Shown here one piece after another: positions 1-52,441 of a DNA stretch of 64,000 nt; the first letter of the stretch is position 1; the number at the start of each line of letters is the position of its first letter. Below the pieces are notes generated by a model that saw nothing but the letters and a program-made list of their open reading frames with translations, was not told the origin of the DNA and made no database searches. Origin of the DNA: a methanogenic archaeon mixed culture ISO4-G1 (lineage in GTDB: Archaea; Thermoplasmatota; Thermoplasmata; Methanomassiliicoccales; Methanomethylophilaceae); contig CP013703.1 in NCBI GenBank assembly GCA_001563305.1, forward strand, positions 62,001 through 126,000, given 5' to 3'. The position numbers and the translations under genes are program-made.

Positions 1-75
1 GACACCCAGAGGCAGAGGGAGGACGACGATTGGGATGTGTCCGAGTTCTACACCAAGGTGAACACGGGCGCATGA
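1..75 (+). CDS. C-terminal end of an unidentified protein (partial)
   Basis: Frame 1 is open from the left edge and ends with TGA at 73-75, encoding 24 residues that include an acidic run (EDDDWD) and end FYTKVNTGA. Codon choice (third-position C or G) matches the neighbouring real genes, so this is probably the tail of a gene that starts outside the window. Too little is visible to name a family. Confidence 0.5.
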   Translation, partial: DTQRQREDDDWDVSEFYTKVNTGA

Positions 76-50733: not shown

Positions 50734-51807
50734 ATGGTACCCAAACGCAGGATAGATGAGATACTTGACGGCTACGACCCCAAGGACATCACGATCGCGA
50801 CGCTCTGCTCCCATTCCTCGCTGCAGATTTTCCATGGTGCGAGGAAGTTCGGATTCAAGACACTGGGTCTTACCATTTCGCACAGTACGAAGTACTACGA
50901 TGCGTTCCCCCTCGGAAAGCCCGACGAGATCATCAAGTACAAGGATTTCGAGGACATGGAGTCCCGTGTCGACGAGCTCTACGAGAGGAATGTGATCATC
51001 ATCCCCCACGGCTCCTTCGTCGAGTACATGGGTTCCGAGAGGTTCGCGGACTATCCAGTTCCGTCATACGGGAACCGCGAGGTCCTCAACTGGGAGTCCA
51101 GCAGGGAGAAGCAGAGGGAATGGATCACCAGCGCGGGGGTCTCCATGCCGGAGATCATCACCGATCCCAAGAAGATAGACAGGCCTGTCATGGTCAAGTA
51201 CAACGGCGCGAAGGGCGGAAAGGGATACTTCATCGCCATGGACTACAACGGATTCAAGATGGCGATCGACCCCGAGGAGTCCTACAACATCCAGGAATAC
51301 TGTCTCGGTACCAGGTACTACATGCACTTCTTCTACGACCCCCTCAAGCACGACGGATACAAGTGCCAGCAGGGAGGTTCTCTGGAACTGATGTCCATGG
51401 ACCGTAGGGATGAGTCCAACATCGATGAGCTGTACAAGCTCGGTAACATCGACGACCTGAAGAAGGTCGGGATGTACCCCTCGTTCGTGGTCACCGGGAA
51501 CACCCCGGTGGTCCTGAGGGAGTCGCTCCTGCCGAAGGCGTTCGATATGGCCGAGAAGGTCGTCGACAAGTCCTATGACCTGTTCGGCGGCATGTGGGGA
51601 CCGTTCTGTCTGGAGACCGTCGTGAACGACAAGCTCCAGTTCAAGGCGTTCGAGATCTCCACCAGGATCGTCGCGGGAACCAACCCGTTCATCTCGGGAT
51701 CGCCTTACGCGGATCTCATCTATCCCGGAATGAGCACCGGGGCCAGGATGGCCATGCATATCAAAGAGGCCGCAGAGAAAGGGACCCTGAAGGAGATCGT
51801 TTCCTGA
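50734..51807 (+). CDS. purP: Formate-dependent FAICAR synthetase PurP
   Basis: 357 residues. PurP is the archaeal ATP-grasp enzyme that formylates AICAR to FAICAR using formate and ATP. TIATLCSHSSLQIFHGARKF, PHGSFVEYMG, RPVMVKYNGAKGGKGYFIA, GTRYYMHFFYDPL and FEISTRIVAGTNPFI are family blocks. Its product is converted to IMP by PurH, encoded at the right edge, which itself also carries a formyltransferase domain. The 3' end lies in the antisense frame of the next gene. Confidence 0.94.
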   Translation: MVPKRRIDEILDGYDPKDITIATLCSHSSLQIFHGARKFGFKTLGLTISHSTKYYDAFPLGKPDEIIKYKDFEDMESRVDELYERNVIIIPHGSFVEYMGSERFADYPVPSYGNREVLNWESSREKQREWITSAGVSMPEIITDPKKIDRPVMVKYNGAKGGKGYFIAMDYNGFKMAIDPEESYNIQEYCLGTRYYMHFFYDPLKHDGYKCQQGGSLELMSMDRRDESNIDELYKLGNIDDLKKVGMYPSFVVTGNTPVVLRESLLPKAFDMAEKVVDKSYDLFGGMWGPFCLETVVNDKLQFKAFEISTRIVAGTNPFISGSPYADLIYPGMSTGARMAMHIKEAAEKGTLKEIVS

Positions 51808-52074
51808 TCGTTCCAGACGAAGCTCGCCCTGCTCGATGATGGCCTCGTTCTCCAAAAGTTTGCGGCGGCCGCGATCCACATATACGGAGACGCGGAAGTT
51901 GCTGACTTCCTTACCAGTCAGTTCCAGTATGGCCTCCGATGCCTCCATCGGTGACAGTCCTTTGACGCGGACGAGCGAGTAGCTGAGAGCTTCCATGATG
52001 GACAATCCTTCGGAGGTTGTCAGGTCGAAGAAGACTTCGCTTATCTCCGTTTTGAGTTGATTCTTGTCGGTCAT
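51064..52074 (-). CDS. Small HTH-like gene whose frame lacks a stop and runs antisense through purP
   Basis: The convincing part is the first 85-95 residues from ATG 52074 (to about 51790): MTDKNQLKTEISEVFFDLTT, VKGLSPMEASEAILELTGKE and NFRVSVYVDRGRRKLLENEA. The last two look like a sigma-region-4/LuxR-type HTH with a Y-x-DRGRRKL recognition helix. A TATA on this strand lies at 52095-52103. No stop occurs at the end of this domain. The frame continues for about 245 residues antisense to purP and first stops at 51064-51066. The extension is probably not a real domain. Confidence 0.5.
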   Translation of the reverse strand: MTDKNQLKTEISEVFFDLTTSEGLSIMEALSYSLVRVKGLSPMEASEAILELTGKEVSNFRVSVYVDRGRRKLLENEAIIEQGELRLERSGNDLLQGPFLCGLFDMHGHPGPGAHSGIDEIRVRRSRDERVGSRDDPGGDLERLELELVVHDGLQTERSPHAAEQVIGLVDDLLGHIERLRQERLPQDHRGVPGDHERGVHPDLLQVVDVTELVQLIDVGLIPTVHGHQFQRTSLLALVSVVLEGVVEEVHVVPGTETVFLDVVGLLGVDRHLESVVVHGDEVSLSALRAVVLDHDRPVYLLGIGDDLRHGDPRAGDPFPLLLPAGLPVEDLAVPV

Positions 52075-52093
52075 TGACGGCTCACACTCGAAG

Positions 52094-52102
52094 TTATAAA
52101 CT
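52094..52102. promoter_or_regulatory. Bidirectional TATA box
   Basis: GTTATAAAC on the plus strand (GTTTATAAC on the minus). It lies about 20-30 nt before ATG 52074 on the minus strand and about 25 nt before the start of the structured plus-strand RNA candidate. Confidence 0.45.
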
Positions 52103-52122: not shown

Positions 52123-52360
52123 CAAGAGATGACGGCCCCTGCAAGGGGCCGGGTCAGTTAGGCTGACCAGACCTGGTTGACATCCCTTACGGGATATCAA
52201 TAATGATCACGACCTCTTCGGTCGCGATCACTAAACGGAGACCTACTGGAGTTGGTCTCGTCAGGATGATGATCATCCAGCTTCACCTCCCGCCAATCGG
52301 TTCCGTGACGCCGAGTAGCGTGGCCCGGCGTCCCGGACTTACCGATATCGGCTATTTTTC
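52123..52360 (+). ncRNA. Candidate structured non-coding RNA, unidentified
   Basis: This 238-base stretch has no supported gene and is packed with hairpins. Perfect or near-perfect stems: 52133-52139/52145-52151; 52152-52157/52163-52168; 52179-52186/52191-52198 (one mismatch); 52204-52214/52220-52230 (one mismatch); 52238-52243/52254-52259; 52264-52269/52273-52278; 52307-52313/52326-52332; and palindrome CCGATATCGG at 52342-52351 followed by CTATTTTT. Plus orientation is favoured by the TATA at 52094-52102 and the T run near 52355. I could not match it to tRNA, RNase P RNA, SRP RNA or a known riboswitch. It might also act as a leader of the aminotransferase gene. Confidence 0.5.
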
Positions 52361-52441
52361 CCGTGGGTAACGGCATCAACCGAAGACTCGAAACAATTAT
52401 TATGGGAGTCTCGGATGCTCGGTAAAAGCAAGGTGCATAGG

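Follow-up and report, generated by a model that had tools for sequence, protein, structure and literature searches.

The hairpin-rich stretch at positions 52123-52360 of the window (the whole DNA analysed, 64,000 nt from methanogenic archaeon mixed culture ISO4-G1, GCA_001563305.1, CP013703.1 positions 62,001-126,000, forward strand) is one copy of a family of structured RNA elements with a conserved microprotein ORF, and the chances are about even that its two strands operate together in the manner of a type I toxin-antitoxin locus, with a harmful peptide silenced by antisense RNA. According to the proposed mechanism, the - strand would be transcribed into an mRNA of some 230-240 nt for a beta-rich microprotein of 29 aa, and the complete mRNA would fold closed by pairing of its Shine-Dalgarno (SD) sequence with a 3' anti-SD, turning translation off. 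Once trimmed at its 3' end, the mRNA would open, and a promoter just past the 3' end would produce a fully complementary + strand antisense RNA that pairs with the opened mRNA and silences translation of the microprotein, which may be harmful when made. This toxicity is a guess from the anatomy of the element, its copy pattern and its viral carriage. As both toxicity and the antisense transcript are predictions, the element is filed as working like a type I module and as a putative member of that class.

The hairpins are real and exceed chance on both strands. The + strand of 52123-52360 has a folding energy of -109.4 kcal/mol compared with -77.5 for shuffles (sd 5.2, z -6.2) and the - strand reaches -127.2 compared with -80.2 (sd 4.8, z -9.85), with no shuffle folding as well on either strand, which bears out the dense hairpins noted in these 238 bases in a preliminary description. 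That description had also failed to match the stretch to a known RNA, and a scan with Rfam release 15 agrees, giving no family at its gathering score. The sole sub-threshold match, Hammerhead_1 with 15.7 bits where the cut-off is 34, led to rejection of a hammerhead ribozyme. Archaeal RNase P RNA, SRP RNA, 5S and tRNA, which are stable structured RNAs of similar size, are separated from the element by Rfam, as none of them was matched at the locus, and scanning of 17 loci with other copies returned only genuine tRNA and 5S genes nearby.

Homologues were found by DNA search in 10 of 150 relatives, mostly as partial matches, and ten of these copies were used to build a covariance model (R1). Scanning of the order Methanomassiliicoccales with R1 was positive for 51 of 147 genomes and 9 of 30 genera and yielded more than 70 diverged copies, with at most eight per genome and several tandem arrays; the window's own genome holds a second full copy at 594495-594671. 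In wider scans, covering 400 genomes from the class and 392 from the phylum, no match fell outside the order, under stricter filters that can lose weak matches. The two named records with copies are a termite-gut Methanomassiliicoccaceae MAG and Candidatus Methanoplasma glyptotermitis (order Methanomassiliicoccales). A second subfamily, mainly from termite-associated genera, has the 5' stem-loop P1, hairpins H5 and H6 and the closing helix in common with the window copy and folds differently in the centre. The order inhabits humans, ruminants and termites, and a third of its sequenced genomes carry this unannotated RNA and microprotein family.

In a structure-based alignment of ten diverse copies (A3), 89.6% of cells pair, two-sided changes occur at 21 pairs compared with 12.5 in shuffles (sd 2.1), and covariation is 0.363 compared with 0.211 for shuffles (sd 0.014) and at most 0.136 for slid versions, so that the covariation in relatives proposed earlier as a check on the RNA is present. 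The closing helix between the SD and the anti-SD is paired in 94% of cells. On the sense strand, G-U wobbles outnumber A-C mismatches by 145 to 46 cells across 28 copies (p 4e-13); the folded RNA is assigned to the - strand because of this asymmetry, and selection acts on the sense-strand (-) structure. The preliminary description had suggested a new ncRNA on the + strand. Its novelty stands, with an unlisted family that covaries in relatives, but its strand and nature do not, as the better-folded RNA lies on the - strand and is coding, and the + strand unit matches an antisense promoter. The parts of the element are listed in Table 1.

Table 1. Parts of the two-strand element as placed in the window copy
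Feature	Positions	Strand	Support or remark
Whole sense element (microprotein mRNA)	52123-52352	-	Fold z -9.85; R1 match 145 bits; 10-sequence covariation
5' stem-loop P1, GCCG..GGTAAGTCCGG....GGAACCG..GGC	52292-52352	-	Kept in nearly all copies
SD GGAGGTGA, 5' strand of closing helix	52283-52290	-	
Microprotein ORF, 29 aa, MIIILTRPTPVGLRLVIATEEVVIIIDIP*	52187-52276	-	Coding test, dN<dS
Hairpin H1, covers start codon	52264-52278	-	
Hairpin H2, within ORF	52238-52259	-	
Hairpin H3, within ORF	52201-52233	-	Richest in two-sided changes
Hairpin H4, stop codon in GUAA loop	52177-52200	-	
Hairpin H5, loop contains UAA	52152-52168	-	
Hairpin H6, GGCCCC..GGGGCC	52133-52151	-	
Anti-SD TCATCTCTTG, 3' strand of closing helix	52123-52132	-	
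Antisense promoter BRE/TATA TCGAAGTTATAAAC	52088-52101	+	Family-wide position and orientation; start predicted near 52123-52127
Predicted antisense RNA (the RNA of the preliminary description), ends at P1 and T5 run 52355-52359	52123-52360	+	

The earlier view that the stretch carries no convincing gene is wrong, as a tiny conserved ORF lies on its - strand. The coding claim rests on A3, an alignment made without coding information, in which the ORF frame has no stops in 250 codons and a mean BLOSUM score of +0.88 at differing codons, compared with 11 and 25 stops and means of -0.54 and -0.70 in the other two sense frames. The same frame is best among 54 copies aligned by peptide, a set chosen partly by peptide character, where variation at the three codon positions is 0.54, 0.35 and 0.64 and thus lowest at the second; dN is below dS in 59 of 63 close pairs. 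Judged from these codon patterns, the 29-aa ORF is coding and under purifying selection. The peptide follows, roughly, the pattern R-(I/L)-x-I-x-x-(G/T)-(D/E)-x-x-x-I-V-I-D-(I/W/L)-x-P-stop, which is constant between the subfamilies despite their different central folding, and some members are basic, e.g., MISVSRNRRGGRRIVIVIGKLTLILEWP. An AlphaFold2 model from an 18-row alignment gives a three-stranded sheet (pLDDT 95.6). No relative of the peptide was found among Pfam, NCBIfam and PADLOC profiles or in the PDB, and a fold search with the model gave no match at E 0.001, the best being generic beta sheets. N-termini resembling MLILTRKVGE had been noticed by eye, and a CsrA-like peptide was rejected on the lack of a Pfam match at E 1, a PDB match or fold support.

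An ATG, GTG or TTG start follows the SD in 38 of 63 ORFs and is absent in the remaining 25. AUC, AUA or ACG stands 6-8 nt past the SD in 18 of these 25 copies, compared with 17% of control codons; near-cognate initiation at these codons is a lead only, because hairpin H1 may itself preserve some GATC words. The 3'-end TCATCTCT (from 52132 downwards on the - strand) pairs with the SD, and the predicted mRNA fold would hide the SD through this closing helix. In the in silico fold of the window copy, the SD core is almost fully paired and is partly freed on removal of the 3' end. Across copies the predicted effect of 3' trimming is moderate, with the median unpaired fraction of the SD rising from 0.09 to 0.24 and a gain of at least 0.3 in 10 of 56. 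The sense loops of H5 and H4 recurrently carry UAA throughout the family (CUUAA, CCUAA, GUAA), and some of these loops are YUNR U-turn words, as in antisense kissing loops.

Around 59 copies, AT content peaks on both sides of the element, at about 0.8 upstream of P1 and more sharply downstream, 33-44 nt past the GTCA of the 3' end, where it is 0.90 at +36 to +38. By a generic archaeal BRE/TATA score, this downstream signal is oriented antisense, facing the element, in 47 copies, and faces away in 10 (p 8e-7). On the antisense strand, 45 of 62 copies have their best match at +32..44, where 5.6 are expected (p 2e-33; 20 on the sense strand), as do 27 of 37 when one copy is taken per genome. The recurrent position and orientation strongly support a conserved antisense-oriented promoter beyond the 3' end. 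In the window, the upstream TATA box of the preliminary description is real and is this antisense signal, sitting about 27 nt before 52123, where the RNA of that description starts; the + strand RNA is therefore best read as a putative antisense RNA across the same element. The T run at its end is also present and would make a clear antisense terminator in the window copy, one that is weak across the family, with A-runs of at least four beside P1 in 10 of 59 copies compared with 5 of 59 in a control stretch; a family-wide T run sought in both directions was not found. The sense promoter is weaker than the antisense one (orientation 35:21, p 0.08). The window copy has no clear sense TATA where expected, and its sense promoter may be ATAATAATT near 52396-52404, or expression may be poor. 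Two copies in another genome lie tail to tail (G020:C5:113032-113205 on the + strand and 113474-113650 on the - strand), with their predicted antisense promoters back to back between them.

One full copy is viral, at 2030-2240 of the tailed-virus IMG/VR contig L091 (IMGVR_UViG_3300028327_000116; 44.6 bits), and has the ORF MHPTECVRITVRLGTIEFVIEFGMF and the downstream antisense TATA in the usual position. The contig encodes a portal, a terminase, a minor head protein and an RNA-ligase-like gene and presumably belongs to a Methanomassiliicoccales virus; a search with its portal protein found no related virus. A 22-base pattern from P1 to the SD matched 18 viral contigs, of which R1 confirms only L091, and annotated phage and plasmid records gave no match to the element.

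Among known type I systems, Ldr/Rdl and Fst likewise combine short ORFs with antisense RNAs, and Ldr occurs in repeated copies, as does AapA/IsoA, which like the element here has several; Ldr/Rdl and Fst differ in peptide class and in organisms. Most type I toxins form a membrane helix, a pattern that is lacking in the peptide here. The AapA/IsoA system of Helicobacter pylori resembles the element in its small peptide, in an mRNA whose SD is hidden by end-to-end pairing and in an antisense RNA with its own promoter, which is predicted here (PMC8167048), but the element is archaeal, unrelated in sequence and encodes a beta-rich peptide rather than a membrane helix. The hok/Sok system of the R1 plasmid and E. 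coli shares a 3' fold-back on the translation start region, an antisense RNA, again predicted here, and carriage on mobile DNA (PMC8167048). It differs in that hok needs the overlapping mok ORF and in that the Sok antisense RNA covers only part of the leader, whereas the antisense RNA predicted here would span the whole mRNA. The AapA1 mRNA is held inactive by 5'-3' pairing over its SD and the hok mRNA by 3' fold-back (PMC8167048), and the two-lock logic proposed for the element would be the same. As asked of type I loci, the element has a short ORF (under about 60 aa; here 29 aa) with a ribosome-binding site (GGAGGTGA), a criterion of which toxicity is not part. Against a type I module stand the weaker sense promoter, the 25 of 63 copies without a usual start, the moderate trimming effect, a peptide unlike the usual membrane helix and the absence of a family-wide antisense terminator.

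Type I systems are known from Proteobacteria, Firmicutes and Tenericutes, with a Cyanobacterial candidate (PMC12390103), and open-licence papers yielded neither an archaeal case nor a description of this RNA. A module with this layout, present in gut methanogens and in one of their viruses, would extend the type I kind to Archaea with an unrelated peptide. We tentatively suggest, at somewhat less than even likelihood, that this is the first archaeal family of toxins or microproteins under antisense-RNA control, with a beta-sheet peptide of less than 30 aa, possibly near-cognate starts in many copies, a self-closing mRNA, tandem spread through the Methanomassiliicoccales and carriage by their viruses. 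Such a module would also bring to the bench a clearly delimited RNA fold, an ORF and an antisense promoter for testing.

The main rival keeps the structured, self-regulated mRNA and its antisense control and makes the peptide a harmless and useful small beta-sheet protein, e.g., one binding its own or another RNA. Though unlikely, it deserves serious weight, as it is favored by the purifying selection on the peptide, the confidently predicted three-stranded sheet (pLDDT 95.6), the basic character of some members and the missing membrane-helix pattern. Copy numbers of 0-8 with tandem, decayed and viral copies speak more for a selfish or conflict module than for a housekeeping protein, and neither fold nor sequence searches gave a relative supporting RNA binding. 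A reading in which the element functions as a structured RNA, from either strand, and has a relic or incidental ORF and an idle peptide would account for the covarying hairpins and for the 25 of 63 copies without a usual start codon. It is nevertheless improbable given the zero stops and conservative codon changes in the ORF frame only, an amino-acid pattern that is unchanged between subfamilies with different central folding, a perfect SD sequence, and AUC, AUA or ACG at the right spacing in 18 of the 25 start-less copies over a background of 17%.

The dispersed and tandem copies, the single viral one and the patchy distribution would also suit a non-autonomous mobile repeat that spreads with the help of its hairpins and promoters, a reading that is very improbable in view of the high divergence of the copies, the selection on the peptide, the retention of the aminotransferase-adjacent site in several species, and the absence of both a linked transposase and a neighbor gene common to the other copies. 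The last of these points also bears on a riboswitch and on the regulatory leader of the aminotransferase gene suggested in the preliminary description, both of which would lie on the wrong strand. The element does lie just upstream of that gene on the + strand, yet the folded coding RNA runs the opposite way, pointing away from it, other copies are not beside aminotransferases, and the gene has its own TATA-like stretch around 52396-52404, which together leave this role hardly any likelihood. For the antisense-silenced toxic peptide, the even chance given above is retained.

Several copies (L061, L067, L078 and L019) adjoin an iron-siderophore-type (FecCD-type) ABC permease/ATPase, in both orientations. 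Decayed copies occur at the window's locus in two relatives (L008:1457-1564 and L065:1555-1662), where the ORF centre comprising H1-H3 is gone. The neighboring gene MTDKNQLKTEISEVFFDLTTSEGLSIMEALS... at 51800-52074 of the window, on the - strand, gave no match in a Pfam search and was detected in 6 of 31 genomes from its genus. Its frame in the window stays open for 378 aa in total, antisense to a purP-like gene, and the frames of relatives are mostly far shorter.
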